Notes: generated from the letters alone by a model not told the origin. 64,000 nucleotides of DNA from Synechococcus lacustris (GCA_903943975.1 CAJAQB010000011.1:1-64000), one strand, 5' to 3'; counted from the stretch's first letter, positions 139 through 25,683 are shown. Numbers and translations are program-made.

Positions 139-161
139 TAATCCTCAGCAGCTGGTTTCAA

Positions 162-188
162 AGCCCCCCGTGAGGGGGGCTTTTTTTT
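162..188 (+). terminator. Rho-independent terminator
   Basis: AGCCCCCC-GTGA-GGGGGGCT hairpin followed by a run of T. Confidence 0.9.
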
Positions 189-224: not shown

Positions 225-2183
225 ATGCCTGTTGCCGAGAGTTGGCTTGAGTTATTTTTTGCTGGTCAGCGCCTCGCTGCTGAAGTCAATCTTCTTGCCC
301 ATGCCTTCCGTAACCCAGGCTTTGCCCTCAGCGCTGAACTTGTACCCCTGCAGCGTTCATTTGGATTGACAGTAGATCAGGCTGATAATCATGATCAAAC
401 CACTCCTTTGCTTGCCCTATCGCAGCAATATCAACTCAGTGCCCAGCAGCCAGCTAGCTTGCGCTCCTTAATACAACAGCATCCCCACTATCCCGATCCG
501 TTGTTATTGCTTGGTTTAAGTTATTTGTTGCCAGCAGCAAGTAGCCCTGCCCAACGTCAACAATATTTCCAACGTCTAGGTCGCCTGCTTTCGTTTCGTT
601 TTCCCCATCGGCCCGATCTTGTTTTGCAGTTGATTGCTGCCGATGCTGCCTTTGCTGTGCTTAAGTCTTTGCCAGACCAGGCCCTGCCTGCCTCTAGTTA
701 TTACGCTAATACCCATTGCGCCCTGTTTCATCTCCAGGCCCTCTGGGCAAAGGGTCGTTACCAGGCCCTGCATCACACCTATATTCACTACATTCTTAGT
801 CGCCGTTGGTTTCCCCACAGTGACTTTCTGCTGCGTGGCTTCACAATAATTGCGCGCATCGAACGCACTGATCAGTTGTTTCGCTTTATCCACCAGCGCA
901 ACCACCACGAACTACAGCTCACTACCATCAGCAATATGTTATTTACGGCCCTAGGCCTAGAGCAGCTTGATCAGCTTCATATCGCCAAGTTGGTGGCTGA
1001 TTATCGGCGTCTTTCCCCGGCATCCACTGCTATTGCAGCACCGCCCCTGCCCCTAAAGGTTTCTGAAAAACCGGTATTGGCCATAGTTTCGGCAGACCTT
1101 CGCCTTCACCCAGTGGGGCGTTTTTGGCTGCCGATTGCTAGGGAACTGCTGCGTCATTTCAAACTTGTGCATCTGGCCTTTAATCCCCTAGACGACGATG
1201 AAATCCGCCGTGAACTAAGCGACCTTTCCCACCGTTGGCAGCCCCTAGAAGCTAATGCTGATGTAACGCCGCTGCTGGCTGAGATTCAGCCCCAGATGTT
1301 GCTGGATCTTGGTGGGCACACCGCTGATAATCGCCCAGGGATCCTCAATCATCGCCATGCGCCGGTGCAAGCCACTTACCTTGGTTTCTATGGCCCCAGC
1401 TATGGCCTCCATTGTGATTGGTGGATCCTTGATAGTGCCATTGCCCGCCGGGTGGAGCATTCATACCCCGGCAGTGAACCGATCTGGGCCCTGCCCGGCC
1501 CCAGCCTTTGCTTTGATCCCTCAGCCCATGGCTTGCCCCCCCTTGAGCAGTTGCGCTATAGCGAACCGGATCACATCAGCCTTGGCTCCTTTAATCACAC
1601 CCGCAAACTCACCGATAGCTGCATTGATCGTTTTGCAGCTGTTCTCAATGACCTAGACACCGCAACCCTGTTGTTTCGCTCCCATTCCTTCTATGACCAC
1701 GCCGTACGCCGTTGGTTTTTGCAGCGTTTTCTTGATGCCGGTGTAAATCCAGCCCAGCTTCAGCCCATACCCTATGCCGTTTCTGGGCCCGAAAGCCTGC
1801 TCGATTACGGCCGCATTCATCTTCACCTCGATTCCTATCCCGTTTGTGGCACCACCACCACCCTCGATTCCATGGCCATGGGGATACCTGTGCTCACCTG
1901 CCCTAACCATCTCTATGCCGGTGCCATCTCCGCTGCTTTGATTGAGCAGGCTGGCTTTAGTGATTGGATATGCCATGATCCCGCCGATCTCCCTTCCATG
2001 GCCCGTGATCTTGCCGAGCGCTATCGCAGCGCCGCCTCCCGTTTGGCCCTGGCCCAGCAGGTGCGTTCATCCCCCGTATGTGATACCCAGGCCATGCCTA
2101 AAATGTTTGCTTCCCAGCTCAAGGAAATGCTGCGGGCTGCATCACTCACTGGCCAGCAATCTGCCCCAGCTGCCTTTGCCTAG
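225..2183 (+). CDS. SPINDLY/OGT-type (GT41-like) glycosyltransferase, C-terminal catalytic domain
   Basis: 652 aa; motifs LHPVGRF, DLGGHTADNR...HAPVQATYLGFYG, LGSFNHTRKLT, GTTTTLDSMAMGIPVLT match the O-GlcNAc transferase/SPY catalytic region. Confidence 0.85.
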   Translation: MPVAESWLELFFAGQRLAAEVNLLAHAFRNPGFALSAELVPLQRSFGLTVDQADNHDQTTPLLALSQQYQLSAQQPASLRSLIQQHPHYPDPLLLLGLSYLLPAASSPAQRQQYFQRLGRLLSFRFPHRPDLVLQLIAADAAFAVLKSLPDQALPASSYYANTHCALFHLQALWAKGRYQALHHTYIHYILSRRWFPHSDFLLRGFTIIARIERTDQLFRFIHQRNHHELQLTTISNMLFTALGLEQLDQLHIAKLVADYRRLSPASTAIAAPPLPLKVSEKPVLAIVSADLRLHPVGRFWLPIARELLRHFKLVHLAFNPLDDDEIRRELSDLSHRWQPLEANADVTPLLAEIQPQMLLDLGGHTADNRPGILNHRHAPVQATYLGFYGPSYGLHCDWWILDSAIARRVEHSYPGSEPIWALPGPSLCFDPSAHGLPPLEQLRYSEPDHISLGSFNHTRKLTDSCIDRFAAVLNDLDTATLLFRSHSFYDHAVRRWFLQRFLDAGVNPAQLQPIPYAVSGPESLLDYGRIHLHLDSYPVCGTTTTLDSMAMGIPVLTCPNHLYAGAISAALIEQAGFSDWICHDPADLPSMARDLAERYRSAASRLALAQQVRSSPVCDTQAMPKMFASQLKEMLRAASLTGQQSAPAAFA

Positions 2184-3391
2184 AAGCTTCCCTGGATTGA
2201 TTCCGCGATAAGTTTTTCCAGCTGGGCCACCGTGTGGCTATGGCGCCAACTGGCTTCTAGGGGCCTTGGTAAATCGCCATGGTTTGCTGCTTTTGGCTGG
2301 TTTAGTTGTGCCGCCATTGCTTCCCCCAGTAATTGGTGATTTGCACCCATGCAAAATTCCACTGCCGCCCCCTGGCCCTCCAGTTCCCTCAGCATTGGAT
2401 TGTCGTCTACCAGCAGCGGTGCCCCGCAGGCCATCGCCTCCAGCACACTCCAGCTCAATACAAAGCTATTTGATAGGTACACATGTAGATCACTGCGTAG
2501 AAACAGCTGCACCAAGCTTTCATGGCTCAGATAACCAAGGAAATGCACCCGCCCCAGATCAAGTTCCCCAGCCACCGCTTCACAGGCCAGATCCTTCCAG
2601 GTTTTCCCCTCTGCCGGTTGGCCTGAATAGCTCGAGCCGGCACTGCCGGCAATTAACACCTGCACCTCCGGTTCCTGTTTCTGCAGCACCACCAAGGCCC
2701 TTAGAAACCGATCAAAACCGCGCATCGGTTCCAGGTTGCGGCTGGCATAGGTGAGCACCTTTACGCCTGGGCCTAACACCGTGCCATCGGGTAGGGTGAG
2801 GCATTGCACCCGTGGCAGCTTCAGCAGTTCATCGCGCACCCCCTCATGCAGCACCTGCAACTTGGAGTGCCATTGCTGTGGGAAGCATTCCGCTTGGTAT
2901 TTGGTAGGGATCATCGCCATCGCACAGCTGGCTAGCGCCCCATCCAGCAGCCAGTTCTTTACCCGCAGGTAGCAGCGTTGGTTTAGGTCCACCCGGCCCT
3001 TGCCCCGGGCCACCCCCATGTGTTCATCCCGCAGCCACAGTTCTGGCCAGATCAATAGCGCTGAACTCGGGAACACCTCCCGCAGAAACAGCGCTTCCCC
3101 CCAGCCTGGATGGGCCAAGATTGCATCCGGTGCCCAGCCCCCCTGGCGCCATTGTTCCGCCAGTGCCGCCACGGCCATCCCCCGTCGGATCCAGTCGTCC
3201 ACCTCGCCACTCAGCCCATGGACCCCCTGGCGTTCCGGTTGTTCTGGCTCATAGCGCAGCACCGTTAGCCCTTCTGGCAGTGGTTTCTGATGACCAGCAA
3301 TCGCCCGCAGCTCGTGGCCCCGGGCGATCAGCGCCGGCGCCAGGTCTCGAAACTGGCCCGGAAAATTTTGGTGTACACAGAGCAGCCGCAT
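2180..3391 (-). CDS. Glycosyltransferase family 4 / group 1
   Basis: MRLLCVHQNFPGQFRDLAPALIARGHELRAIAG... and FVLSWSVLEAMACGAPLLVDD; start set to ATG at 3391, since the longer ORF start overlaps the neighbouring gene. Confidence 0.85.
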   Translation of the reverse strand: MRLLCVHQNFPGQFRDLAPALIARGHELRAIAGHQKPLPEGLTVLRYEPEQPERQGVHGLSGEVDDWIRRGMAVAALAEQWRQGGWAPDAILAHPGWGEALFLREVFPSSALLIWPELWLRDEHMGVARGKGRVDLNQRCYLRVKNWLLDGALASCAMAMIPTKYQAECFPQQWHSKLQVLHEGVRDELLKLPRVQCLTLPDGTVLGPGVKVLTYASRNLEPMRGFDRFLRALVVLQKQEPEVQVLIAGSAGSSYSGQPAEGKTWKDLACEAVAGELDLGRVHFLGYLSHESLVQLFLRSDLHVYLSNSFVLSWSVLEAMACGAPLLVDDNPMLRELEGQGAAVEFCMGANHQLLGEAMAAQLNQPKAANHGDLPRPLEASWRHSHTVAQLEKLIAESIQGSF

Positions 3392-3404
3392 CAATTTGCC
3401 TGGC

Positions 3405-5813
3405 TTAACGCGGGTAAGGGCAGCGCAAGGCCACGGGCGGCGGCGGCAAGTGCAGCGGCCAGCTATTGCCACTTGCCTCCTCGCCCCATTGCTGCTCGAT
3501 CCAGCTCCGCCACCATTGCCGGAAGCTGCCAGCCAGCGCTTGCGCCAGGCCTTTGTGATCTAGCAGGGCGCTAGCCTTGATCGCTGGCCGTAGGCCGAGC
3601 CTAAGTTTTTGCAATTGGCCTGGGTCTGCCAGCAAGCCCTGGGCCTTTGCCACTAATTCCTCGCTGTTGTGGCAGATCCATTCCGGATGGCCCGCCGCCG
3701 CCAGCACCGCCGCCGCCTGGCGGCTCACCATTGATTCGCCCGCCACCGTGAGCACAGGCACCCCCATCCAAAGGGCATCGGCGCTGGTGGTGCAGCCGGT
3801 ATAAGGAAAAGTATCCAGGGCCAGGTCTAGTTCGCTGTAGCAAGCCAGGTGTGCTGCCACCGAGGGGCTGTGGCCCGCCAGGTGCAGCCGTTCCTGGGCT
3901 AGCCCCAGGCCACCAAATAGTTCTCGGATTCGTTCTGCCTCTGTGCTTTCCCCCAGGTTTTTGCTCTTAAGCAGCAGCTGCGCTTGGGGAATCGCATTTA
4001 ATACCGCCATCCAGCGTTCGGCGGTGGTGAGCGTGATTTTCCGGCTCTGGTTAAAGGAGCCCAGCATCGGAAAGCCCCGTTTTGCCATAGGCAAATTGCC
4101 CACCGCCGGTGCCTCAGGCAGGGGCCGATAGCTCAGGTAGGGCCTCTCCAGCCGCCAGCGGCTTTCACTGCAGGGGTCTTGCCCATCTCGCTCCGCCGGA
4201 TGCAAGGTGGCATCGGTGATCCAGTAATCCACCTGATCCAGCCCGGTGGTGCCGTAATAGCCCAGGTAGGTGGCCTGGATCGGTGCTGGTTTCATCGCTA
4301 ATAGCTGCAGCCGATTGGCGGCCGTATGGCCGGCCAGATCCACCAGGATGTCGATCTCATCCCGCAGGATCTGCAGAGTGGCGTTTTCATCGCTTACGCC
4401 ATTTAGATCGCGCCAGCGGTCAGCCTTGCTTTGCAGCCGGCGCGTGTAATCGTCGCGCACGGTGCCGCAGCCATAGAGGTTGATCTGTAGTTCTTCCCGG
4501 TTCCATTGCTCCAGCAGCGGTTCAATGAAATAACTCACCGCATGGCGACAGAAATCCGGTGAGATCAGCCCGATTTTTAGTTTGCGATTTGGATCCGGCA
4601 ACGGGATCCGATCCCGCCAGCGTTCAAACGGGCTGGTGGCAAATTTCTCAGCAAAGCGCCGCGCTTCCGCATAACGCTCGGCCGCTGCTTCCAATTCGTA
4701 GCCCACCAGGGTGAACAGCACATTGGAATGGGCCGCAGGGCTGGCCTCCATCGTGGCGGCCCCTTTTCGCAGCCATTCCAGGGCCTCCGGGTAGCGGGCC
4801 ACATCCTTGAGCACTGAGCCCAAGTTATTCATTGCCGCCCCAAATTTCGGATCCGACTCCAGGGCCCTTTCAAAGCAGCTCCTTGCCTGGTGGCTGCGGC
4901 CGATGTCCCGCAGCAGTAGCCCATAGCTGTTTAGGCAGATCGCATAGGCCGGGTCTAGTTCCAGCGCTTCTTCAAAGCGTTGGCAGGCCTCCTCCCAACG
5001 GGCTAGCCCCTTAACTGCTATCCCCAGTGCATAGCGCAGGTTTGCACTTTTAGGGTGGATTGGCAGTTGCGATAGCAACAGCTCTTCGGCATCTTGCTCG
5101 CGCTTTAATTCACACAGCACCTGGGCGGTGTTAAGCACCATCAGCAGCTGTTTTTCCCCCTCCGCCAGCTCCAAGGCCCGGCGCCAATGGGCTAGGGCCT
5201 CTGGGCTTTGGCCCAGGTGGTGGTATGCATTGCCCACCTCCAGCAGCAGGTCGGCGGCGGTGGTATTTGCTTGCTGGGGCAGCCCATCCAGCTGGGGCAG
5301 CACCCGCTGGATCAAGGGCCAGTGTTCCCCTGCCTTGTTGAGGGTGATTGCTAGCCCCAGCAACGGCCCCAGTTGGTCTGGGGCCAGTTGAAGGGCCTTC
5401 TCAAAGGCTCGCTTTGATTCTTCAATCCGGCCCAAATCCCGGAGTGCATTGCCGGCGTTGCCCCAGAGGCTCTGGTCTTTTGGGCAGCGTTTTAAGGCTT
5501 GTTCGGTGCAACCCAGGCCTTCGGCGCTTTTACCCTGCTGGCGCAGCATCGCCCCCAGGTTGCGCCAGGCATCCACCAGCTCAGGGTTGGTTTGTAGTGC
5601 TAGCCGGTAATGCTTCTCAGCACCAGCCAGATCTCCCCCCTGGTGCAGGTTGCAGGCCCTTTCAAAAGCAGCGAAACCGCGATCAGTGGGGGTGGGGTGC
5701 GCCGCGCTCGGGATCGGAGCTGAGGCGGTAGTAGAGGCAGCAGCAGGGGCAGCAGCAGCCATAAAACCAATATTCGGTCCGGCTTTTGGCTTGTTGGTTT
5801 TTTTGCGGCCCAC
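3405..5813 (-). CDS. TPR-repeat O-GlcNAc transferase-like (SPINDLY/GT41) protein
   Basis: 802 aa; N-terminal TPR units (AWRNLGAMLRQQGKSAEG, AMNNLGSVLKDVARYPEA) and C-terminal OGT motifs (DLAGHTAANRLQLLAMKPAPIQATYLGYYGTTG, GSFNQSRKIT, CTTSADALWMGVPVLT). Confidence 0.9.
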   Translation of the reverse strand: MGRKKTNKPKAGPNIGFMAAAAPAAASTTASAPIPSAAHPTPTDRGFAAFERACNLHQGGDLAGAEKHYRLALQTNPELVDAWRNLGAMLRQQGKSAEGLGCTEQALKRCPKDQSLWGNAGNALRDLGRIEESKRAFEKALQLAPDQLGPLLGLAITLNKAGEHWPLIQRVLPQLDGLPQQANTTAADLLLEVGNAYHHLGQSPEALAHWRRALELAEGEKQLLMVLNTAQVLCELKREQDAEELLLSQLPIHPKSANLRYALGIAVKGLARWEEACQRFEEALELDPAYAICLNSYGLLLRDIGRSHQARSCFERALESDPKFGAAMNNLGSVLKDVARYPEALEWLRKGAATMEASPAAHSNVLFTLVGYELEAAAERYAEARRFAEKFATSPFERWRDRIPLPDPNRKLKIGLISPDFCRHAVSYFIEPLLEQWNREELQINLYGCGTVRDDYTRRLQSKADRWRDLNGVSDENATLQILRDEIDILVDLAGHTAANRLQLLAMKPAPIQATYLGYYGTTGLDQVDYWITDATLHPAERDGQDPCSESRWRLERPYLSYRPLPEAPAVGNLPMAKRGFPMLGSFNQSRKITLTTAERWMAVLNAIPQAQLLLKSKNLGESTEAERIRELFGGLGLAQERLHLAGHSPSVAAHLACYSELDLALDTFPYTGCTTSADALWMGVPVLTVAGESMVSRQAAAVLAAAGHPEWICHNSEELVAKAQGLLADPGQLQKLRLGLRPAIKASALLDHKGLAQALAGSFRQWWRSWIEQQWGEEASGNSWPLHLPPPPVALRCPYPR

Positions 5814-5900: not shown

Positions 5901-7580
5901 ATGCTGACCGCGGACCCCAAGGCCCAGGCCAGCGATGCCCTGCAGCTCTTCCATGCAGGTCAGTTCCAGCAGGCCTTTGACGCGGCCCTGCCGCTGCTGG
6001 CAGCGGCGGAGGTGGCGGCGGAGATGAACCATCTGCTGGGCGCTTGCCTGCATTCCCTGGCCCGCAGTGAGGAGGCCCTGCCCTACCTGCGCCAGGCCAT
6101 TGCCCTTGAGGCCAGTAACCCCAGCTACCTAAACACCCTTGGCGTGGTGTTGCGCAAGCTCAAGCGCACCGAGCAGGCGATCCGTTCCTACGAACGGGTG
6201 ATCGCCCTCCAGCCTGATTTTTCAGACGTTTACTACAACTGTGGCAACGCCCTTTCTGAACTGAAGCGCACCGAGGAGGCCGTGGGCCGTTTCCGCCGCT
6301 GCCTGGAGCTCAACCCCCGCCACCATTCCGCCCACCACAACCTCGCCAACGCCCTGCGGGACCTCAAGCAACTGGATGTTGCCCTGCATCACTACGAGCT
6401 CTCCGACCAGTGCGAACACCACAATCCAGACATGCACTGCAACTGGGGCCTGGCCTGGCAGTTGCAGGAACGTTGGGACAAGGCCATTGATTGCTTTGAA
6501 CTGGCCATCAACCAGAAGGGGGACCATGCCGCCTCCCACATCAACCTCGGCGGCGCCCTCGCCGTGCAGGAGCGTTTTGATGAGGCCTGCGCCGCCCTGC
6601 GCCGCGGTGTGGAGATCGACGACAGCTGTAACGACGCCAAGTTCAACCTCGGCCTCACCCTGCTCACCATCGGTCAATACGAGGAGGGCTGGAAGTTTTA
6701 CGACACCCGCCTGAGCCTGCCCGATAAGGTGCGGCCGCCGATCGCCTCCCCGATTTGGGATGGCAACCTCGATATCGATGGTCCCTTGCTCGTGTGGGCG
6801 GAGCAGGGCTATGGCGACAACATTCAGTTCGCCCGTTATCTACCGATCCTGATGGAGCTGGGGTTGCAGGTGACCCTTTCCACCCGGAAACCGTTGATGG
6901 AATTGTTCCGCCAGTGCCTCAAACCCCAGTGCCCGGCCATCATTGACCACAAGCCCTCCGAGCTCCAGGGCTTCAAGCACCATGTGCCCCTGCTCACCCT
7001 GCCGCGCATCTTCCGCACCAGCATCCAAACCGTGCCGATGATGCCCGGTTATCTCCAGCCACCCCCCAGCATCCCCCCTGGCTTGAAATTTGAGCGTCAA
7101 CCCTTTGCCCTCAACATCGGCCTGGTGTGGGCCTCAGGGGTAGACAACAAAGACATGTATGCCGACAAGAGCATGCAGCTGGAACTGCTGCTGCCCCTCT
7201 TTGACAGCTGGCGCCAGGAACGCCTGGTGGTGCTCCATGCCCTCCAGGTGGGGGCCGATGCCGCCCAACTCGAACCCTGGCGCGGCCAGCGCGGCGTGGT
7301 TGATTGGAGTGAAAAGCTCGACAGCTTCCTCGATACCGCCACCGTGCTCAGCCAGCTCGACCTGGTGATCAGCGTTGATACGGCCGTGGCCCACGTGGCC
7401 GGTGGCCTTGATAAACCCACCTGGCTGTTGCTGCAGCACAACGCCGATTTCCGCTGGTTGCGCGGCCGTGCAGACACCCCCTGGTACCCCAACATGAGCC
7501 TGATTCGCCAAAAGAAGCTCGGCGATTGGTCCTCCGTGGTGGAGCAGGTGCAAGACCGCCTCCAGCAGTTGCTCGGTTGA
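5901..7580 (+). CDS. TPR protein with C-terminal GT9-like (heptosyltransferase-like) domain
   Basis: 559 aa; TPR units (YLNTLGVVLRKLKRTEQAIRSYERVIALQP) and GT9-like C-terminus (LDLVISVDTAVAHVAGGLDKPTWLLL). Confidence 0.85.
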   Translation: MLTADPKAQASDALQLFHAGQFQQAFDAALPLLAAAEVAAEMNHLLGACLHSLARSEEALPYLRQAIALEASNPSYLNTLGVVLRKLKRTEQAIRSYERVIALQPDFSDVYYNCGNALSELKRTEEAVGRFRRCLELNPRHHSAHHNLANALRDLKQLDVALHHYELSDQCEHHNPDMHCNWGLAWQLQERWDKAIDCFELAINQKGDHAASHINLGGALAVQERFDEACAALRRGVEIDDSCNDAKFNLGLTLLTIGQYEEGWKFYDTRLSLPDKVRPPIASPIWDGNLDIDGPLLVWAEQGYGDNIQFARYLPILMELGLQVTLSTRKPLMELFRQCLKPQCPAIIDHKPSELQGFKHHVPLLTLPRIFRTSIQTVPMMPGYLQPPPSIPPGLKFERQPFALNIGLVWASGVDNKDMYADKSMQLELLLPLFDSWRQERLVVLHALQVGADAAQLEPWRGQRGVVDWSEKLDSFLDTATVLSQLDLVISVDTAVAHVAGGLDKPTWLLLQHNADFRWLRGRADTPWYPNMSLIRQKKLGDWSSVVEQVQDRLQQLLG

Positions 7581-8263
7581 TGGCCTTTGACCCTGTAGAT
7601 CCCAGCTGGCAGCTGTTGCGCCGCAGTGGCCGGGGCCGCCAGTTGCAGGAGGCCTGGCTGGAAAATGAGATCTGTGCCCTCGTGCCCTTAGCGCCTGAAC
7701 GGGAGGCTGAGTTGATCGAGGCCTTTGCCCTGGAGTTGCCCCTCCAGCCGGAGGATCTCGCCTATGCCGCCACCCGCCAGGAGCGCCTGCAGCTATTCAA
7801 ACGGGCCGCTTTTACCCTGCACGTGGAGGAACGCTTCAGCCGCACCAAACGCCAGCGGGATCGGATTATTTATTCGATGCTGCGCAGTGTGAGCCCTGGC
7901 CGGGTTGCAGAGCTCGCCTTGGCCATCCGCGAAGGTGAGCTCGATTTTGCCAGCGCCGCCATCCGTTGGTCGGAGGGCCCCGAAAGTGCCCAGGGGGGCC
8001 GCATCGGTCCGATCTCCCCTGATCTGGGCCATCCGGAATTAAATGAACGGCTCAACCAGGCCAACGAAGGTGACCTGATCGGCCCCTTCCCCGTGGGCAA
8101 CATGCATGTGCTGTTGCGTCTTGATACCCGCATCACCACCCGCCTGGATGAAGCCCTGCAGCAGCAGTTGATTGAGGAGCTCTACGCCGAGTGGCTCCAC
8201 CGCCAGCTGGAAGCGCTCACTAAAGGTGAGAACATGGATCCCATCGAGTATCTACCGGCGTGA
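7580..8263 (+). CDS. Parvulin-type peptidylprolyl isomerase-like protein associated with type I secretion
   Basis: Start ATG 7580 overlaps upstream TGA; contains FASAAIRWSEGPESAQGGRIGPISPDLGHPELNERLNQANEGDLIGPFPVG, typical of PpiC/parvulin domains. Confidence 0.8.
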   Translation: MAFDPVDPSWQLLRRSGRGRQLQEAWLENEICALVPLAPEREAELIEAFALELPLQPEDLAYAATRQERLQLFKRAAFTLHVEERFSRTKRQRDRIIYSMLRSVSPGRVAELALAIREGELDFASAAIRWSEGPESAQGGRIGPISPDLGHPELNERLNQANEGDLIGPFPVGNMHVLLRLDTRITTRLDEALQQQLIEELYAEWLHRQLEALTKGENMDPIEYLPA

Positions 8264-11200
8264 CCCAATCCCTGTCCTCTCGGGTGCGCCTGCTCATGGA
8301 TGGCCCCCCCCTGGATCGGCTTGATCCAGCCCTGCTGGTGCAGCAGGAGGAGCAGGTGCAGGCCTGGCAGCTGCCCCTTGGCGAGGAACTGGCCAGGGAA
8401 GGGGCCCCCTTTGGTTATGTGTTGCGGGTGGTGGAGGGCAACCTGCGCCTCAGCGGCAGGGATGCCATGGGCCAGGAATTCACCCTGCGGCGCCTGGGCC
8501 CCGGCGAATGGTGGGGCGCCTGGGGGGCCCTCAATGGCCAGGCCCCTGCCTCCTGCCGCACCGCCACCGATTGCAAATTGCTGGCGGTGCCCGTGGAGCT
8601 CTGGCAGCAGTGGTGGCAGGCGGCCCCGGCCCTGGCGGAATGGACGGCCCCCCACCCCCAACGGGAAGACACCTACAGCGCCCTGCGGCCGCTGTTGATC
8701 CAGCGCGAACGCCAGGAACTCAGCCTGGTGGAATTGTTAGATCGCCTCCAGCCCAGCCTCTGCCCCCTGGAGGTGCGCACCCCTGGCGAGCTGGAGCAGC
8801 AGCTGGCGGCCAGCCCCCACAACAGCTGGTTTCTGGCCGCCGCCGACCGTTTCCTGCCGGATCAGAACCCCCCCGGGGTGGCGGGCTATCGCCCCGAACA
8901 GCTGCAGCAGGCCCTGCGCCGCAGCGGTTGGGGCCTGCGCTTGATTGCCCTGCCCAGCGCTGAGCTGGAAGAGCTGATGCTCGCCAGCCCACCGCCGCCG
9001 GTTGTTCCGGTGGAAGTGGTGGATCCCCTGCTACTCGAGGAGCGTCCCGCCTGGGAAAACCCCGATGGCGCCCAGCTGTTGGCCGCTGCCCTTGAACAGC
9101 AGCAAACCGAACCCCGCCGCGATGTGGAGGGCCTGGTGGTGCGGCCGGTGCTCGGCAGTTCCGCGGCCGAACAGGGGCTGGCCCTACTGCAGATGGTGTG
9201 CGAGGTGCTGCGGGTGCCCTTCCGCCGCGATGTGGTTGATCGCATGTTGCGCGGCATGGTGGGTGATCGCCCCTATCCCTCCCTCGAGCAGCTCGGCCAG
9301 ATCTCCGATGCCCTTGGCTTCAATGCGGTGCTGATGCAGGTGCCGGCCTCCCACCTCGGCCGCCTCGCCATGCCCGCCCTGCTGGAGCTGGCCGATGGTC
9401 CGGTGCTGGTGGCGGGCGAACGGCGCGGTCGCCTGCGGGTGATCGATCCCCGCGAGGGGGAACGCCACCTCAACCTGGTGAAGCTGGCTGAAACCCAGCC
9501 GCTGCTGCGGGCCGTAACCCTTAGCCGCCGGCCCCAAACCGCAGAGAAGCGCTTTGACATCAGCTATTTCTTTCCCTACCTGCAGCGCTATCGCCAGTCG
9601 TTGATCCTGGTGTTTGTGGCCTCGTTGTTTATCAACCTGTTTGGCCTCGCCCAGCCCCTGCTGATCCAGCAGATCATCGATAAGGTGATCGGCCAGCAAA
9701 ACTTCAGCACCCTTTATTTCATTGGTGTGCTCTTGATCGGCAGCAGTATTCTTTCCAATGTGCTGAATTTGATCCGCACCTTCCTATTTACAGATACCAC
9801 CAACCGCATTGATATTGCCACCTCCGGCAATATCCTTACCCATCTATTCCGCCTGCCCCTGGGCTACTTCGATAATCGGCCCGTGGGGGAAATATCCACC
9901 CGGCTCAATGAGCTAGGCACCATCCGTGGCTTCCTCACCGGCACCGCCTTAACCCTGGTGCTGGATGTGTTGTTTGGGGTGGTGTATTTATTCGTGAGTA
10001 TCTCCTACAGCGGTTTGCTCACCGCCGTGGCCCTCAGCGTTATCCCCCTCTATCTCGCCCTGGTTTATATCGTTTCACCCGTGATCAAGCGCCAGCTGCG
10101 CATCGCCGCCGAGGCCAATGCCGCCGCCAGTTCGCTGATGGTGGAAGCGCTCACCGGCATTCAAACGGTGAAGGCCCAGCACGCTGAAACCACCCTGCGC
10201 TGGAAATGGCAGCAGCGCTATGCCCGTTTAATTTCCAGCAATTTCCGCACCACGATCATCGGCAGCACCGCCGGTGCCATCGGTGCCTTTTTCAATGAGA
10301 TCGGTGGCCTGGCTGTGCTCTGGGTGGGTGCCTATCTGGTGCTTAAGGGTGAACTCACCGTGGGGCAGCTGATCGCCTTCCGGATCATCAGTGGCAATGT
10401 GGTGGGGCCGATCATCCGCCTCGCCGGCACCTGGCAAACCGTGCAGGGTTTACAGATTTCCGTGGAACGCTTGGCCGATGTGGTTGATGCCCCCACCGAA
10501 CAACATGAGGATGCCCGTCCCATTGCCCTGCCGCCGATCACCGGCAAGGTGGAATTCGATCGGCTTAGTTTCCGTTTCCGCCCCCATTCACCCCTGGTGG
10601 TTAAGAGCGTCAGTTTCACGGTGGAACCGGGCAAGTTTGTGGGCATCGTTGGCCAGAGCGGCAGTGGTAAAAGCACGATCATGAAATTGCTTCCGCGCCT
10701 CTATGACCCCACGGAAGGGGTGATCCGCATTGATGATTACGACATCGCCAAAGTTGATATCGATTCCCTGCGCCAGCAGATCGGCATCGTGCCCCAGGAT
10801 TCGATGCTCTTTGATGGCTCCGTGCGAGACAACATCGCCCTCAATGCCCCTGATGCCAGTGATGAGGAGGTGATCAAGGCGGCCCAGGTGGCCTGTGCCC
10901 ACGCCTTCATCATGGACCTGCCCCAGGGCTATGCCTCCAGCGTTGGCGAGCGCGGTGCCGCCCTCTCCGGCGGCCAGCGCCAGCGGGTGGCGATTGCCCG
11001 TTCAATCCTGGCCAAACCCCGCCTATTGATCCTTGATGAGGCCACCAGCGCCCTTGATTACCTCACCGAACGCACCGTTTGCGAAAACCTCAAACGCGAG
11101 CTGCGCGGTGACACGGTGTTTTTCATCACCCACCGCCTCGCCACCATCCGCAATTCAGATGTGATCCTGCTGATGGAGAATGGGTTGCTCCAGGAGGCTG

Positions 11201-11277
11201 GCACCCACACCGAATTGCTGCAGAAACGCGGCCTTTACTACGCCCTCTACCGTCAGCAAGATGCCGCCGTCAACTGA
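8260..11277 (+). CDS. Type I secretion ABC transporter (cNMP-binding-like N-terminus, degenerate C39-like domain, TM and ATPase domains)
   Basis: 1005 aa, GTG start; Walker A GQSGSGKST, signature LSGGQRQR, Walker B LLILDEATSALD; TM domain typical of HlyB/LapB-like exporters. Confidence 0.93.
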   Translation: MTQSLSSRVRLLMDGPPLDRLDPALLVQQEEQVQAWQLPLGEELAREGAPFGYVLRVVEGNLRLSGRDAMGQEFTLRRLGPGEWWGAWGALNGQAPASCRTATDCKLLAVPVELWQQWWQAAPALAEWTAPHPQREDTYSALRPLLIQRERQELSLVELLDRLQPSLCPLEVRTPGELEQQLAASPHNSWFLAAADRFLPDQNPPGVAGYRPEQLQQALRRSGWGLRLIALPSAELEELMLASPPPPVVPVEVVDPLLLEERPAWENPDGAQLLAAALEQQQTEPRRDVEGLVVRPVLGSSAAEQGLALLQMVCEVLRVPFRRDVVDRMLRGMVGDRPYPSLEQLGQISDALGFNAVLMQVPASHLGRLAMPALLELADGPVLVAGERRGRLRVIDPREGERHLNLVKLAETQPLLRAVTLSRRPQTAEKRFDISYFFPYLQRYRQSLILVFVASLFINLFGLAQPLLIQQIIDKVIGQQNFSTLYFIGVLLIGSSILSNVLNLIRTFLFTDTTNRIDIATSGNILTHLFRLPLGYFDNRPVGEISTRLNELGTIRGFLTGTALTLVLDVLFGVVYLFVSISYSGLLTAVALSVIPLYLALVYIVSPVIKRQLRIAAEANAAASSLMVEALTGIQTVKAQHAETTLRWKWQQRYARLISSNFRTTIIGSTAGAIGAFFNEIGGLAVLWVGAYLVLKGELTVGQLIAFRIISGNVVGPIIRLAGTWQTVQGLQISVERLADVVDAPTEQHEDARPIALPPITGKVEFDRLSFRFRPHSPLVVKSVSFTVEPGKFVGIVGQSGSGKSTIMKLLPRLYDPTEGVIRIDDYDIAKVDIDSLRQQIGIVPQDSMLFDGSVRDNIALNAPDASDEEVIKAAQVACAHAFIMDLPQGYASSVGERGAALSGGQRQRVAIARSILAKPRLLILDEATSALDYLTERTVCENLKRELRGDTVFFITHRLATIRNSDVILLMENGLLQEAGTHTELLQKRGLYYALYRQQDAAVN

Positions 11278-12568
11278 TCCCAAGCCCGCTGATCCCACGC
11301 CCGCCAGCGCTGCCCCCTTAACCCTGAGGGATCGCCTGGCGGCCCTGCGCCCTAGCCCCAGCCGCAAGGTTTACTACGACAGCCCGGGGATGCTGGAGCA
11401 GAGCAACCACTGGGGTGGCCTGGTGATCTGGACGATCGCCGCCGGCACCAGCGCCGCCCTGATCTGGGCCTTCCTCGGCAAGGTGGATCAAACCGTGACG
11501 GCCAACGGCACCCTGGAACCGGCCAACGGCAAGGTGGATGTGCGCAGCACCAGCGGCGGCATCGTTAAAAAGCTCTGGGTGCGGGAAGACCAGTGGGTGA
11601 AGCCCGGTGATCGCCTGGTGGAGATCGAAAACCTTGGCCTCCAGGCCCGGCTGCTCACCACCGCCCGCCAGCTGGCCCTGCTGCGCTACGAAAACAGCCT
11701 CTTTAATCTCTTGATTGATGGCGGCGGCCGCCTGCCGGTGATATTGCCTTCACCGCCCCCGGGCATTGCCACCGAAGAGCGCGTGCGTTCGGTGCAGCTC
11801 ACCGTGCAGCAAACGGCCTCCCAGTTGCGTCAGCTCCAGGAGCGGGTGGCCTCCCAGCAGGAAACCCTCAGCCTCAAGCAGTCTTTAGCCGATTCCCTGC
11901 GCTTGCTTTACAGCAACGGTGGCTACGCCAAGTATTCATATCTGCAGGCCCGCGATGAAATCCAGCAGATCCGTTCCCAGGTGAGCCAAACCAAGGAGCA
12001 GATCAATATTCTCGTTTCGGAAGCTGGTCGCCAGGTGAGTACCAACGACCGTCAGATCCTTAATCTTGAAGCTGAACGGGTGGGCCAGCAGGAATCCCGC
12101 AGCAACCTGGTGCTCAAGGCCACCGGTGCCGGCCGGATCTTTAATCTCGCCATGCGGCCCGGTTCAGTGATCGGTTCAGGCACCGAGCTGATGCGGATCG
12201 TGCCGGAAGGCGCCCTGCGCGCCAAGGTGTATCTGGCTAATACCGACCTTGGTTTTGTGAAGGAGGGCCAGAAGGCAAAACTCTCGGTGTCTTCTTTCCC
12301 GGCCGGTGAATATGGCTACCTGGAGGCGAAGGTGAGTCGCATTGGTGCCGATGCCCTTGATAATCAAAGCCAAGCAGAACAGCAGCGGGCCAACACCTAT
12401 CCCCTGCAGGTGACCATCACCAACAACCCCACAAAGCGGGCCCTGCTGGCCAAGCTCAAACCCGGCATGCAGGTGTCTGCCCTGATTGTGGTGCGCCAGC
12501 GGCCGGTAATCAGCCTATTTACTGAGATGTTTACTAAGGGTACTGAAGGGCTTAAGAACAGCCGCTGA
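11261..12568 (+). CDS. HlyD-family type I secretion membrane fusion protein
   Basis: Single N-terminal TM, VTANGTLEPANGKVDVRSTSGGIVKKLWVREDQWVKPGDRLVEIEN biotinyl/lipoyl-like hairpin; start set to ATG 11261. Confidence 0.92.
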   Translation: MPPSTDPKPADPTPASAAPLTLRDRLAALRPSPSRKVYYDSPGMLEQSNHWGGLVIWTIAAGTSAALIWAFLGKVDQTVTANGTLEPANGKVDVRSTSGGIVKKLWVREDQWVKPGDRLVEIENLGLQARLLTTARQLALLRYENSLFNLLIDGGGRLPVILPSPPPGIATEERVRSVQLTVQQTASQLRQLQERVASQQETLSLKQSLADSLRLLYSNGGYAKYSYLQARDEIQQIRSQVSQTKEQINILVSEAGRQVSTNDRQILNLEAERVGQQESRSNLVLKATGAGRIFNLAMRPGSVIGSGTELMRIVPEGALRAKVYLANTDLGFVKEGQKAKLSVSSFPAGEYGYLEAKVSRIGADALDNQSQAEQQRANTYPLQVTITNNPTKRALLAKLKPGMQVSALIVVRQRPVISLFTEMFTKGTEGLKNSR

Positions 12569-13461
12569 TGACTACTGATGCTGCCTCCTCCGAACAGCTT
12601 TCTTTGCCTTGGTGGGAACATCCAGATGATCTGATTGATCTGGCTGATGCCTTCTTTGCTAATAATTTAGAGGCATCCGAGCGCAGTTTACTTGCGTTAG
12701 GGATTAAAGAAACTGGCACTGAAGCGGTTGTGCTTGGCCAGGCAGCTGCCGTGGTGCAAAACCGCACCACCGCGCAGATCTGGCGCAATGGTGAGGGTTG
12801 CATCCTGGCCGGACCTTTCAAAGGGATGCGCTATCTGCCCATTGCCCTGCATTCTCTGTTGTTGCCAAAATTGCTGGGTACCTATGAGGCGGAGCTCAGC
12901 CCCCTGCTGGAGGAGTTACTACCCCGGCTCAATTTCTTCATTGATGTGGGCTGCGCCGAGGGTTACTACGTGGCTGGCATGGCTTACCGTCGTCCCCAAC
13001 TGCGTTCGATTGGCGTAGATATTGATTCCCGGGTGCAGCGCTGTCTCAAGGAGCTGACTGGCCTAAATGATCTGTATGGCCGTGTGGGTTTCACCTCTTC
13101 CACTGCGATGGCCTTGGCGATGGAGGGGGTGAGGGGCCAGGGCTTGGTAATTGTTGATGTGGATGGTTCAGAGGCCGAGGTGCTCACCACTTTGCAGCAG
13201 CACCTGGCTGCTAGCGATCAAATAGAGAGTTTGGATTTGATCCTGGAGACAGATCGCTCGGCTAATGGCAGTAGTAACCAATGGGAGTTGGAGCAGTTGC
13301 TAGGGCAAACCGGTTTTCAAATCAACGGGGTCTTCCATCAGGATCCTGGCCTGCGCTTCAGCCCACTGTTGTCTCATTTTAATTTTCCCAGTTGGGCGGC
13401 CTGTGGCTGGGAGCGTGATTATCCTGAGCAGTGTTGGTTGCATGCCCGCTGGCAGCGTTGA
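12568..13461 (+). CDS. FkbM-like SAM-dependent methyltransferase
   Basis: LNFFIDVGCAEGYYVAGMAYRRPQLRSIGVDID (SAM motif I) and GLVIVDVDGSEAEVLTTL; ATG overlaps upstream TGA. Confidence 0.75.
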   Translation: MTTDAASSEQLSLPWWEHPDDLIDLADAFFANNLEASERSLLALGIKETGTEAVVLGQAAAVVQNRTTAQIWRNGEGCILAGPFKGMRYLPIALHSLLLPKLLGTYEAELSPLLEELLPRLNFFIDVGCAEGYYVAGMAYRRPQLRSIGVDIDSRVQRCLKELTGLNDLYGRVGFTSSTAMALAMEGVRGQGLVIVDVDGSEAEVLTTLQQHLAASDQIESLDLILETDRSANGSSNQWELEQLLGQTGFQINGVFHQDPGLRFSPLLSHFNFPSWAACGWERDYPEQCWLHARWQR

Positions 13462-13470
13462 TTGCCCTGA

Positions 13471-14241
13471 ATGAATTCCCCATCACAGGCCAAAGCTCCC
13501 ATAAACTTTTTTCAGATTTATCTTTCTGAAACAAGTCTGGAGCTGCCACCACTGCTGCAGAGGATGCAGGCCACTGCTGAGCAATTTTTTCCGGGCCATT
13601 CCCATCAGTTATTTAATCGCCTCAGCCTTAGGGAATGCCTTGCTGATACCTGTGGTAAGGAGGTGCTCACTGCCTATGACCGGCTTATTCCCCTGGCCTA
13701 TAAGGCTGATTTGGCCCGTTATTGCTTGGTGCATCACTTTGGTGGTTGGTATGCAGATATCACCCTAAAGTTCACTTCTGGGGTAGCATTTGAAGATTCT
13801 ATTGAGTTCATATACTTCTATGATTATGGTGATGGTTTGCCGTCCCCCTTTCGCACCGGCCACGATTGCATGAATGCCTTTTTTTATGCAGCTGCTGGTT
13901 CTGCAATTCTCTCAGATGCCATCGAGATGGTCCTAAAAAATTGCCACGAGCGTAACTACGGGATTAGTTCCCTCTGCCCCACTGGACCCACATTGTTTGG
14001 TAGAGCTGTGGCCATGCATGCCCCTGAGTATAACCAGCTTTTTGGGCATTTCATGCCGCTCACACCTTTTCATCCCAATCGGAACAAGTCGTTTGTGGCC
14101 CCCGATGGCAGCATCATCGCCCGCCATAAATCCGCCTGGCATAGCAACCATCCCGGCCCCGGTGATCTCAGTGCCTTTGGTGCCACCGGCACTAATAGTT
14201 ATTTCAGCCTCTGGCGCCAGCGTCAGGTTTATGCAGATTGA
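13471..14241 (+). CDS. GT32-like glycosyltransferase (DXD sugar-binding region)
   Basis: AYKADLARYCLVHHFGGWYADITLKF typical of Gly_transf_sug domain. Confidence 0.8.
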   Translation: MNSPSQAKAPINFFQIYLSETSLELPPLLQRMQATAEQFFPGHSHQLFNRLSLRECLADTCGKEVLTAYDRLIPLAYKADLARYCLVHHFGGWYADITLKFTSGVAFEDSIEFIYFYDYGDGLPSPFRTGHDCMNAFFYAAAGSAILSDAIEMVLKNCHERNYGISSLCPTGPTLFGRAVAMHAPEYNQLFGHFMPLTPFHPNRNKSFVAPDGSIIARHKSAWHSNHPGPGDLSAFGATGTNSYFSLWRQRQVYAD

Positions 14242-14246
14242 AGAGA

Positions 14247-15455
14247 TTAGCTTGGCCTGAGCAGCTCCCGTTCCAGTAACAGTTTGATTAGTGTTTCCAT
14301 GCTGGCTTGCCAGTTCATCGCTGCCATCACCTCTGCCCCCTGCTGGCCGTGGTTGCGCCAGGTTTGCTTTTCCCGCCAGAGCCGCAGCCACCACTGCACC
14401 AATTCCTCTGGATCGGTTTCACCCCAAAGGCCCCCCGCATCACCGCCGTAGCCGGTGGTGATTTCTTTAGGCACCTTACCCACGCCAGCACTGCCCACTG
14501 GAATGGCGTGGGCCATGCCCATCTCCAGAAGATCTAGATGGCCCGTATTGGCAGATAACAGTGTAGGAATGCCACAGGCGAGGGTTTCCATTGCCATCAG
14601 ATTGGTGCCCCCCTCGCAGCGACTTGTGAATACCGCTGCATCCGTTTGTTTGATCAGGTTGGGGAGCTGGGTATTGGCCATGATCTGGGGCAGTAATATG
14701 TTGCCGGCCGGGATTTGATTTAACTGCAGCCAATCAAATAAACTTTTGGCATCACCATTGCTTGGTGCCCCCTCCACGTAGGGCGTGTGGGCAATCGTAT
14801 CTAGGCCCACATTGCCGATATTGGCCCAGGTGGCAATCAGTAATGCATTGGGGCAGTGGCGCAGAAAACGCCGGAAGCCCTCCAGCACGATGTCTTGCCC
14901 CTTGCGCGCCTCCAGCTTGCCGCCGGCAAAAATCACAAAGGGTTGCTCAAATAGCCGTGGCACCGGAATCGGATTAAAGCGACTGGTATCAACACCTTGA
15001 TGCACCAGCGCTGCCGAGCCGTAGCCCCCCTCTTCCATTACCCGCTGGTTCCAGTGGGAACCAGTGATCACCAGGTCATAGTCATCCAGGGCCCGGCGGT
15101 ACGACTCATCGATTTGGCTGCGCTCAAAGAATGTCACCCCCACCTGGTGCTTTGCCAATACCCGCAAAGGGGGCACCTGGTTGCCGATAGGTCCCATGGC
15201 CACCTGACAATTGGTGGTGAGAATCGTTTGGGGGTTTGTTTCTAATTGCTCAATTAGTTTACGGCTGAATCTCTCGATTTCATCCAGTTTCAACAGCCAG
15301 TGGGGGTCACAGTGGGGGCTGCGGTCTGCCATGCGGGTGAGTACCGGCCGAACGCTGCCCCCGGCCACTAGGGCCTGGGCCAGTTGGATGCCGTAGCCGC
15401 CCCAGCCGGTGTATGGGGTTAGCGGCCAGTCAATCAATAGCCTTTGCTTCGCCAT
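14247..15455 (-). CDS. Glycosyltransferase group 1 (GT4-like)
   Basis: FVIFAGGKLEARKGQDIVLEGFRRFLRHCPNALLIATW and SRCEGGTNLMAMETLACGIPTLLSANTGHLDLL. Confidence 0.85.
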   Translation of the reverse strand: MAKQRLLIDWPLTPYTGWGGYGIQLAQALVAGGSVRPVLTRMADRSPHCDPHWLLKLDEIERFSRKLIEQLETNPQTILTTNCQVAMGPIGNQVPPLRVLAKHQVGVTFFERSQIDESYRRALDDYDLVITGSHWNQRVMEEGGYGSAALVHQGVDTSRFNPIPVPRLFEQPFVIFAGGKLEARKGQDIVLEGFRRFLRHCPNALLIATWANIGNVGLDTIAHTPYVEGAPSNGDAKSLFDWLQLNQIPAGNILLPQIMANTQLPNLIKQTDAAVFTSRCEGGTNLMAMETLACGIPTLLSANTGHLDLLEMGMAHAIPVGSAGVGKVPKEITTGYGGDAGGLWGETDPEELVQWWLRLWREKQTWRNHGQQGAEVMAAMNWQASMETLIKLLLERELLRPS

Positions 15456-16324
15456 CAGCCAGCCTCCGCTGGCACTGGCGTTAGCAGGCCCATGAAGTTG
15501 CGACCGGCATGTTCCACCGTTAGAAATCTGCCGTTATCGAGGGCTGGTTTCATGATTTGGAACTGTTTCATTACCCCTAGGGTTGCGGCACTTTCAAGGG
15601 GGCTGTGGAAGCTCACATCTTCCTCTTGCCAATGGGGGCTAGTGAAGTAACTGTTGGCCTGAGTCCTGTTTAAAAAGAAACAACCAGAATGGGTATTTAG
15701 TGGTTGGCTAAAACGAATCGGTCTACCAAGGTGTTCAAAGCATAGCCTTTCAGCCATTGACTGCCGATAGGCGGCGCTGGCTGCCGGATTGTAGTCGCCA
15801 TCAATATAAAATCGATTCAGATGTTTCAGGTCTTCGCTGGTTTCTATGCGGTTTGGCTGCAGTAGATAGTTGTTTCCAAAGCTCCTGTTGAACTGTTGAA
15901 GCTTAAGGAAAAAATCAGCATCGGTTATTAGGATATCATCTTCTAGGTAACAGCTGTAATCGTAGGAGTTGTGTTGTTCCTTGAGTACCCGGTGGCAGCA
16001 GAAGCCTAAGTGCTTAGGCTCGCTGGGTTCGCAGGCCACTGCCCTGAATGCGCCGGCGGCTTGAAGATCTGCCAGTTCGCCCAGTAGATGTTCTTTACCT
16101 GTTACACAGATATTAATGCTGAGCTCGGTTCCACCATCGTTTACTGGATCGAGTCGTCGCTGCATGTGGTTAAGGCTGCCCGCCCGCCGGCCGAACAAGC
16201 GGTGAAGCTGGAGGATCACCTGTCTCAATGCCGCCGCCCGGGGGGCTGGGTCAGGGCTGAGCGATCCATGGCGGCCACCGCCCGCGGGGTTGAAGTAGTG
16301 GACGATCGCCAGCTGGATTTTCAC
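15455..16324 (-). CDS. Putative glycosyltransferase-like protein
   Basis: 289 aa; MKIQLAIVHYFNPAGGGRHGSLSPDPAPRAAALRQVILQL... and SYDYSCYLEDDILITDADFFLKL with acidic EDD motif. Confidence 0.6.
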   Translation of the reverse strand: MKIQLAIVHYFNPAGGGRHGSLSPDPAPRAAALRQVILQLHRLFGRRAGSLNHMQRRLDPVNDGGTELSINICVTGKEHLLGELADLQAAGAFRAVACEPSEPKHLGFCCHRVLKEQHNSYDYSCYLEDDILITDADFFLKLQQFNRSFGNNYLLQPNRIETSEDLKHLNRFYIDGDYNPAASAAYRQSMAERLCFEHLGRPIRFSQPLNTHSGCFFLNRTQANSYFTSPHWQEEDVSFHSPLESAATLGVMKQFQIMKPALDNGRFLTVEHAGRNFMGLLTPVPAEAG

Positions 16325-16419
16325 TCTGCCTGGCCCGAATCAATCGCCAAGCGGGGATCCTACGGGGTGTTAGTTCTCGCAGAAGCCCCTGTCTACAGTG
16401 CTTTGGTCTGGCTGGGGTC

Positions 16420-16641
16420 TTGGCTGTGTTGCTTCGTCGCTTGCGACGGCTGTTGGTGCGGCTGCGCATCAGCCCTTTTTCGGTGCCCTTGCTGCTATTG
16501 CTTTTGTGGGCCGGCATGATGACGCTCTTGGCCCGGGCCGCCGATGGCTGGATTGTGATGTTGGCGGCCACACCCTTGGGTTTTGCTGGCTTGCTCACCC
16601 TGCTCTGCTGGCTGGCCTACAGGCGGGATTTTTATGCATAG
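16420..16641 (+). CDS. Small membrane protein
   Basis: 73 aa with two predicted hydrophobic segments (FSVPLLLLLLWAGMMTLL, MLAATPLGFAGLLTLLCWLAY); overlaps start of downstream GT. Confidence 0.5.
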   Translation: MAVLLRRLRRLLVRLRISPFSVPLLLLLLWAGMMTLLARAADGWIVMLAATPLGFAGLLTLLCWLAYRRDFYA

Positions 16642-18298
16642 GCCCTACCCGGCGGCGCTATTGCTGCCTGGCGATGCCTTTGATACCAAGCAACACCAGG
16701 TGCTTGGTCGACGGGTGGCCGGCCGCTCTTTCGCTGAGGGGCTAGTGCAGCAGCTCAGGGCCACTGATGAGCTCACGCTGCTGGTTACCGCTCCGGAGGA
16801 ACAGGTGTTGCTGCGTAGCTTGCTGGAGCCCCACCTGCCCCATGGTGCGCAGTTGCGCTTGCGGCTGGGCTTCCCCCAGGAGGCGCTGCTTGCCACAGGT
16901 GCTTTGCATGTGCCTGACCCGGGCCTGGCCCGTTGGGAATTACTCCGCTCAGGCCTGCCTGCGGCGGCCTTCTCGCTAACCGGGGTGATTCACACGATCT
17001 GCTCCCAATCGGTGCTGGAGAGCATGGAGCGCTTGGTAACTGCGCCGCTGCAGCCCTGGGATGCGTTGGTTTGTACCTCCACGGCTGGTCGGGCCGTGGT
17101 GCAGACCGCCATGGGCCATCACCACGAGGCCCTGCAGCGGCGATTTGGTGTGGTGTTGCCGCAGCCGTCAGGGCCGCAGTTGCCCTTAATTCCCTTGGCT
17201 GTGGCCGATAGCCTGCCGCCCAAAGGCCAGTCTCGCCAGCAGCTCCGCCAGCAGGCGCGGCAGCAGTTGGGCCTCCCCCAGGAGGCATTTGTGGTGCTGT
17301 TTCTTGGCCGCCTCAGTTTTCACAGCAAGGCTCACCCCTTGGTGTTGTATCGGGCGATGGCGCGCTTGGCCGCTGCTTTTCCGCAGGCCCTATTGCTGGA
17401 GTGCGGTCACATATATAACGAGCCAGTGGCAGAGGCCTATGCAGAGCTCGCGCAGAGCTTTCCCCAGCTTTCCCAGCGGCGCCTCGGGGGCCTTCAGCCC
17501 GCCACGGAAGCCGAAAAGACCCTGGCTTTGGCTGCTGCTGATGTGTTTGTATCGCCGGCCGACAATCTGCAGGAGACCTTCGGTCTTTCGGTGATCGAGG
17601 CGATGGCAGCAGAGCTGCCGGTGGTGGCAAGTAACTGGGATGGTTATCGAGACTTGGTAGAAGAGGGCAGCACCGGTGCCCTGATTCCCACGGAGATGGC
17701 CTTTGGTTCAGTGGCACAACTTGACGGTTTGGATCGTCTCTATCGCCTAGGACTGCTCGATTACGACACCATCGTGGGCTTGCGCAGCTTGCAAGTGGTG
17801 GTAAACGAAGATGCCCTAGTGCAGATCCTCACCAGCCTCTACGTTGATCCAGACCTGCGTCAACGCTGGGGTGCTGCGGGCCGGCGCCGCTGGCAGGAGC
17901 GTTTTTGCTGGCCGGTGGTGGCCGCCCAGTACCGGCAGCTTTGGGAGCAACTGGCCGAGTTGAGGAGCCAGTCGGGGCCCCAAGCAGCGGAGCCCTCTGC
18001 CAGTGCCCCCACCGCCCATTTGTTTGCGGGCTACGCCACCACTACTTTTCAGGCTCAAGCCCTGCGGGTCCCCCCCCTGGCCACCCCTGCCGCCTGGTTG
18101 CGGCGGCCGATGCAGCGGCCTTTTTTCAGTCAGCTATGTGGGTCGGCCTTTGATGCTTTGATCGAGCATTTGGAACGTCACGGCCGAGTGGATCGCCAGG
18201 ATCTCAGCGCCCTAGGTATAGATCCTGCCCAGCAGCTCAATGTGCTGGCGGCCCTGGTCAAGTTTGGGGTGGCAGTGCCTGAGGCCAGCCAGCAATGA
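16634..18298 (+). CDS. Glycosyltransferase group 1 (GT4-like)
   Basis: Start ATG 16634 (MHRPYPAALLLPGDAFD); FVVLFLGRLSFHSKAHPLVLYRAMARL and SPADNLQETFGLSVIEAMAAELPVVASNWDGYRDLV. Confidence 0.85.
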   Translation: MHRPYPAALLLPGDAFDTKQHQVLGRRVAGRSFAEGLVQQLRATDELTLLVTAPEEQVLLRSLLEPHLPHGAQLRLRLGFPQEALLATGALHVPDPGLARWELLRSGLPAAAFSLTGVIHTICSQSVLESMERLVTAPLQPWDALVCTSTAGRAVVQTAMGHHHEALQRRFGVVLPQPSGPQLPLIPLAVADSLPPKGQSRQQLRQQARQQLGLPQEAFVVLFLGRLSFHSKAHPLVLYRAMARLAAAFPQALLLECGHIYNEPVAEAYAELAQSFPQLSQRRLGGLQPATEAEKTLALAAADVFVSPADNLQETFGLSVIEAMAAELPVVASNWDGYRDLVEEGSTGALIPTEMAFGSVAQLDGLDRLYRLGLLDYDTIVGLRSLQVVVNEDALVQILTSLYVDPDLRQRWGAAGRRRWQERFCWPVVAAQYRQLWEQLAELRSQSGPQAAEPSASAPTAHLFAGYATTTFQAQALRVPPLATPAAWLRRPMQRPFFSQLCGSAFDALIEHLERHGRVDRQDLSALGIDPAQQLNVLAALVKFGVAVPEASQQ

Positions 18299-20383: not shown

Positions 20384-20384
20384 C

Positions 20385-21515: not shown

Positions 21516-21554
21516 GGGGCGAGCCTAAAGTCCGGCCGCTTATCGGCCCCTGCC

Positions 21555-22688: not shown

Positions 22689-22734
22689 CGTCCATTACCA
22701 TGCCCGCTTGCCAGAGCTGACTGGACCGCGGGAT

Positions 22735-24009: not shown

Positions 24010-24018
24010 GTTGCTGTT

Positions 24019-24831: not shown

Positions 24832-24836
24832 ATCCA

Positions 24837-25661: not shown

Positions 25662-25683
25662 TGTCAAGCCGCTTCTTAGGCGT

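Follow-up and report, generated by a model that had tools for sequence, protein, structure and literature searches.

Gene content of the locus

The window analysed here comprises the first 64,000 nucleotides of contig C11 of Synechococcus lacustris, with base 1 at the contig edge. Two glycosyltransferase genes of the GT41 family, GT41-A and GT41-B, lie close to this edge beside a type I secretion system (T1SS; Table 1). Both open reading frames were noted in a preliminary description of the same DNA and were recovered here. The catalytic-core motifs quoted there are present in both proteins and include the donor-site lysine (K665 in SPY, K842 in OGT).

Table 1 Features in the first part of the window (SPY numbering for enzyme residues)
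Feature	Position	Strand	Description
Probable RTX-type T1SS substrate, C-terminal 45 codons	1–138	+	Reads GEIITLRGAVGTISSATITNAFSNATLGTSGTANFGIAGSIPTFS, then stop; gene cut by the contig edge
Intrinsic terminator	160–183	+	10-bp stem, then T run; between the substrate gene and GT41-A
GT41-A	225–2183	+	652 aa; GT41/SPY-like; helical N-terminal region, no TPR detected; divergent R689, S728, D731, V744
GT4-family glycosyltransferase	2180–3472	-	Glyco_trans_4_3 and Glycos_transf_1
GT41-B	3405–5813	-	802 aa; TPR and GT41; SPY-like donor residues K665, K689, H728, Y744
TPR-GT9-like protein	5901–7580	+	559 aa; FlmG-like layout; divergent from GT41-B
PpiC-type peptidyl-prolyl isomerase	7526–8263	+	245 aa; Rotamase, 3.4e-6
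HlyB-type T1SS ABC transporter	8260–11277	+	1005 aa; N-terminal cyclic-nucleotide-binding domain
HlyD-type membrane-fusion protein	11180–12568	+	462 aa from the longest start
Methyltransferase-like gene	12568–13461	+	Weak Pfam match
DXD sugar-transferase-like gene	13471–14241	+	Weak Pfam match

The Pfam Glyco_transf_41 family matches both proteins, GT41-B at 6.5e-43 and GT41-A at 2.4e-7, where the score of 29.8 bits lies above the cut-off of 25. Many TPRs are recognized by Pfam in GT41-B, and none was detected at Pfam thresholds in the first ~270 residues of GT41-A, in agreement with the preliminary description. In a PDB search the best match of each enzyme is Arabidopsis SPINDLY (SPY; E=5e-28 for GT41-A and 1e-93 for GT41-B), which ranks above TtOGT, XcOGT and human OGT. 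The structure prediction suggested earlier was carried out for GT41-A. The AlphaFold model has a mean pLDDT of 71.6, with a confident GT-B half and an all-helical, low-confidence region over the first 270 residues. Its whole chain aligns best with SPY–GDP-fucose (E 6.5e-24), and the whole-chain fold matches are SPY, TtOGT, XcOGT and OGT. Judged by sequence, both open reading frames encode GT41-type enzymes whose closest solved structures are those of SPY.

A GT4-family gene, absent from the preliminary description, constitutes a third glycosyltransferase gene between the two GT41 genes. Homologues of it adjoin the RTX gene in relatives, and another is located on contig C7 of the same genome. 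Downstream of GT41-B, the genes from TPR-GT9 through PpiC, HlyB, HlyD and the methyltransferase-like gene to the DXD transferase-like gene overlap or almost touch, and the TPR-GT9 gene is probably the first gene of the export operon. The model of its product (pLDDT 91) contains eight helical-repeat pairs followed by a domain of alternating strands and helices; the protein is a third candidate protein glycosyltransferase. The presence of both a HlyB-type ABC exporter and a HlyD-type adaptor confirms that the GT41 pair is accompanied by a T1SS, as first described. A glycosyltransferase island with several GT4, GT2 and RgpF genes follows at 14–27 kb and extends up to tRNA-Gly (27304) and secA (28875).

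The likely substrate gene is also present in the window. It was overlooked in the preliminary description and is truncated at base 1 by the contig edge. The remaining piece contains 31% Ser+Thr. A BLAST search of its 45 residues against the RTX proteins of relatives gave no significant match, so its identity rests on position, including strand, and on composition. In relatives an RTX gene occupies the matching place on the matching strand, and the encoded proteins end in sequences of the type TTVSTATITALG. GGxGxDxLx nonapeptide repeats are absent from the 45-residue piece and present in the relatives' RTX proteins and on contig C7. The terminator behind the gene is the strongest of 16 sites found in a terminator scan, for which 6.8 were expected. 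Contig C7 (4.9 kb) ends within an RTX gene, of which it holds 271 N-terminal residues, flanked by homologues of GT4a and TPR-GT9. This fragment is probably the other half of the gene at the window edge. An assembly break within the repeats would fit the split between C7 and C11; we looked for an overlap between the two contig ends and found none.

Linkage of GT41 enzymes and type I secretion in relatives

We surveyed 300 genomes of the family for the GT41 pair of relatives, designated A' and B', of which A' adjoins the RTX gene. GT41-A' was counted at E<=1e-100, and the N-terminal region of the cognate HlyB above 458 bits, the next score being 133 bits. GT41-A' is found in 18 of the 300 genomes and the cognate HlyB in 19, with both present in 17. 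In all 17 the two genes lie on one contig, at most 8 kb apart. In the three unmatched genomes (G024, G057, G162) the gene is on a short or edge-cut contig. All 17 intact loci keep the same gene order and orientation, namely RTX protein, GT41-A', GT41-B', TPR-GT9, PpiC, HlyB and HlyD, with A' and B' convergent. PpiC was called in 16 of them, while locus L275 has an unmatched open reading frame at that place.

Twenty loci with a sister cNMP-HlyB served as controls, and none contains GT41. These sister loci have HlyD and usually PpiC; a GT4 gene and an RTX gene of shorter length occur in some of them. In the HlyB tree, the window exporter and the 17 GT41-linked exporters are separated from the 20 sister exporters without GT41 (split support 100/98). 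The window exporter is a deep, long-branched member of the GT41-linked side. In other bacteria, a T1SS gene is present in only 3 of 50 long GT41 loci. A scan of genome contigs gave matches to proteobacterial and other GT41 at 30–41% identity, with no named picocyanobacterium among them. On these genomic comparisons, the linkage between GT41 and T1SS genes is not accidental. The conserved order in 17 relatives, the HlyB tree and the rarity of T1SS genes at other GT41 loci therefore identify the window as a divergent instance of a conserved GT41–T1SS–RTX association.

The divergence extends to the enzymes. In the GT41 tree A' and B' each form one clade (100/100). Window GT41-A, whose branch is very long, groups with B' (99/93); its placement with A' is not rejected (AU p=0.066). 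The AU test narrowly rejects a grouping of window GT41-B with B' (p=0.038), and the protein lies outside that clade. Clear orthology of the window pair to A' and B' is thus not supported, and the tree and AU results indicate the A'/B' architecture with enzymes that are either different or have diverged strongly.

The glycosyltransferase island at 14–27 kb raises the question of whether the GT41 enzymes serve the synthesis of a surface polysaccharide (EPS or LPS), with the exporter a mere neighbour. Glycosyltransferase homologues flank the cluster in relatives as well. We regard this as unlikely: the occurrence of GT41 tracks a single HlyB clade, and none of the 20 sister T1SS loci examined has it, although some do have GT4 neighbours. 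To our knowledge, the TPR-GT41 enzymes of known function, SPY and OGT, act on proteins.

The protein modified could itself be intracellular, in a form of SPY/OGT-like regulation, or it could be a part of the T1SS rather than its exported substrate. SPY targets nuclear and cytosolic proteins, and a homologue in S. elongatus affects phosphorus retention and aggregation according to work cited in PMC4683255. The sporadic occurrence of the cluster, in 18 of 300 genomes, and its linkage with RTX and exporter genes are unlike those of a housekeeping regulator and make this reading improbable.

Donor-site residues of the GT41 enzymes

Three positions distinguish the donor sites of SPY and OGT. In SPY, guanine is contacted by K689 and fucose by Y744; OGT has Leu and Cys at these two positions and Arg in place of A731 (PMC10027727, PMC9715652). 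The SPY-like clan of GT41 has been defined by these three specificity residues (PMC10027727). L866, R904 and C917, in human OGT numbering, are the corresponding residues of the OGT/SEC-like clan, and a published 'intermediate' clan shows mixed patterns.

GT41-B carries K, H, C and Y at positions 689, 728, 731 and 744. It therefore has two of the three SPY-clan residues and a small residue at 731, suggesting a SPY-like GDP-sugar pocket. GT41-A, with R, S, D and V at these positions, has none of the three. The OGT/SEC-like set is found in neither enzyme (K/C/Y in GT41-B, R/D/V in GT41-A). The donor residues, of SPY type in GT41-B and divergent in GT41-A, argue for GDP-sugars over UDP-GlcNAc. The O-GlcNAc-type reading in the preliminary description is corrected accordingly as regards the donor residues.

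GT41-B thus shares with SPY, a protein O-fucosyltransferase, the TPR and GT-B layout as well as K665, K689, H728 and Y744, and SPY is the best structural match of GT41-A. The window enzymes differ from SPY in being bacterial, in forming a pair and in lying beside RTX and exporter genes. At the residue level, A731 is replaced by C in GT41-B, and GT41-A has R/S/D/V at the specificity positions.

The relatives show a regular pattern. All 18 B' enzymes keep K689, H728 and Y744. The 18 A' enzymes likewise all retain K689 and H728, but residue 744 is Asn in every one, with Gln at 731 and Cys at 747. The same 18 A' sequences are obtained when the set is chosen by N744, by position next to the RTX gene or by the tree, so the pattern is not circular. 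Since Asn replaces Tyr744 in all A' partners, the two enzymes may use different sugars.

The genome contains gmd and an adjacent GDP-fucose-synthase-like gene (C11:124.6–127.6 kb), the latter scoring 441 bits, under the 500-bit cut-off. We rejected the GDP-fucose genes as a discriminating feature. As gmd is nearly universal in the family, it lends no specific support beyond the availability of the precursor pathway.

Candidate RTX acceptors and a proposed glycosylation and export pathway

The RTX proteins encoded next to GT41-A' are 554–1170 residues long, contain 23–29% Ser+Thr and are poor in Lys, Arg, Pro and Cys. At positions -6 to -3 of the GGxGxD motif their S/T fraction is 0.41–0.68 per protein, compared with 0.20–0.38 in control RTX proteins beside sister exporters, and the ranges do not overlap. 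Ahead of each GGxGxD turn, the GT41-linked proteins thus carry an S/T cap in register, which is lacking in the control proteins. The GT41-linked RTX proteins are homologous to each other, so the common register could reflect ancestry. In the window genome, the cap is found only in the C7 fragment (47%) and in a 2138-residue RCC1/RTX-like protein on contig C19 (54%). Eleven other candidates have at most 30% S/T or no site.

An acceptor of another kind would be the Asn of the GNDT/GNDS turns, if GT41-A were an HMW1C-like N-glycosyltransferase. HMW1C is a GT41 N-glycosyltransferase coupled to the two-partner secretion of an adhesin, and the locus resembles it in placing a GT41 enzyme with a probable secreted surface protein, through another secretion system. 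The N-terminal half of GT41-A, in which no TPR was found, would suit such an enzyme. The RTX proteins contain more NX[ST] than expected by shuffling (344 against 215), although the excess comes from the GNDT/GNDS turn of the RTX motif itself, and the candidate Asn sits in the calcium turn. HMW1C was found neither in the PDB sequence search with GT41-A nor among its best 50 fold matches, a comparison made with a model of low confidence in the N-terminal domain. With SPY, TtOGT, XcOGT and OGT as the whole-chain folds, we consider N-glycosylation by GT41-A very improbable.

The preliminary description had proposed that a secreted protein is glycosylated in the cytoplasm before T1SS export. This core idea gains genomic support from the synteny with RTX and T1SS genes, the HlyB tree and an S/T-rich substrate with its S/T in register. 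We consider it probable that the locus is a dedicated 'glycosylate, then export' system for an oscillin/SwmA-like RTX protein, with the catalysis, the donor and acceptor, the sequence of steps and the role at the surface predicted from the genes and their arrangement. The S/T-rich RTX surface protein, with its C-terminus at the window edge and its probable N-terminus on C7, would be made in the cytoplasm and, at the low calcium level there, remain unfolded during glycosylation. It would be gripped by the TPRs of the GT41 enzymes, which are clear only in GT41-B, and by those of the TPR-GT9 protein. The GT41 enzymes would then place sugars on Ser/Thr of the caps before the RTX turns, the donor of GT41-B probably being a GDP-6-deoxyhexose such as GDP-fucose, and the neighbouring GT4 and GT9 enzymes may extend the glycan. 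PpiC, HlyB and HlyD would export the glycosylated protein, which would fold on calcium outside as a glycoprotein of an S-layer or fibril, comparable to oscillin and SwmA.

Elements of this pathway have precedents. FlmG of Caulobacter combines TPRs with a glycosyltransferase and modifies flagellin in the cytoplasm before export (PMC7591256). The principle of TPR-held cytoplasmic glycosylation before export is the one proposed here, and the TPR-GT9 protein shares the N-terminal TPR and C-terminal glycosyltransferase arrangement, a comparison of layout only. In the present locus, export would be by a T1SS, the substrate would be an RTX protein and the enzymes belong to GT41. SwmA and oscillin are glycosylated cyanobacterial RTX surface proteins, for which the review names no glycosyltransferase (PMC3034196); the predicted substrate is likened to them by class, through RTX repeats, a cyanobacterial surface location and glycosylation, not by homology. 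Our literature search, which covered few subscription papers, found no report linking GT41 with T1SS or RTX proteins.

A more tentative extension concerns the pair of enzymes. The GT41 paralogues have a common GDP pocket, but the residue contacting the sugar is Tyr in all 18 B' and Asn in all 18 A'. It is possible that, in a T1SS-coupled system, a single RTX surface protein receives a different GDP-sugar from each of them on its repeated S/T caps. If true, such glycosylation would parallel, with sugars, the acylation that classical RTX proteins undergo before they are exported, and Tyr versus Asn at one sugar contact provides a residue-level prediction.

The locus connects GT41 enzymes with type I secretion and offers concrete candidate enzymes for the glycosylation of cyanobacterial RTX proteins, which has been known for decades. 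If the proposed pathway is correct, SPY-type chemistry would not be confined to intracellular signalling but would also serve to build the bacterial surface of picocyanobacteria.

Additional GT41 gene and candidate substrates

Outside the window, contig C8 of the same genome (G000) encodes a third GT41 of 908 aa with divergent donor residues. Downstream of it are encoded a DUF4915+GNAT protein, a regulator of the LuxR type and an FG-GAP protein that is 1579 aa long and S/T-rich. This arrangement may be a second GT41-surface-protein pairing. Another extracted locus, L106, contains ORFs resembling this region in size and order. An animal-haem-peroxidase protein encoded nearby carries an RTX-like stretch at its C-terminus.

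On C19, a 2138-aa RCC1/RTX-like protein shares the S/T cap register of GT41-linked RTX proteins, which makes it another candidate substrate, the second in this genome.

Locations of features in the window and on other contigs of G000
Feature	Genome or window position	Extracted locus
Third-GT41 locus	G000:C8:227105-237504	L088:8105-18504
Haem-peroxidase protein	G000:C8	L088:5492-7480
RCC1/RTX-like protein	G000:C19:308094-314510	L243:8094-14510
Second T1SS	G000:C20:59123-62100	L250
Glycosyltransferase island	window 14247-27226	

Second exporter and glycosyltransferase island

The second T1SS, PpiC-HlyB(cNMP)-HlyD, is not accompanied by a GT41. Exporters with cNMP-HlyB are present in approximately one third of the family genomes searched.

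The island contains GT4, GT2, RgpF-like and unassigned genes and ends at tRNA-Gly (27304) and secA. In relatives, two of the island genes have homologues bordering the GT41 cluster.

GT41 and TPR-GT9 in other bacteria

In other bacteria a TPR-GT9 homologue is often located at most 10 kb from GT41, in 14 of 50 GT41 loci (L157-L234), which suggests a recurrent partnership between these two TPR glycosyltransferases.
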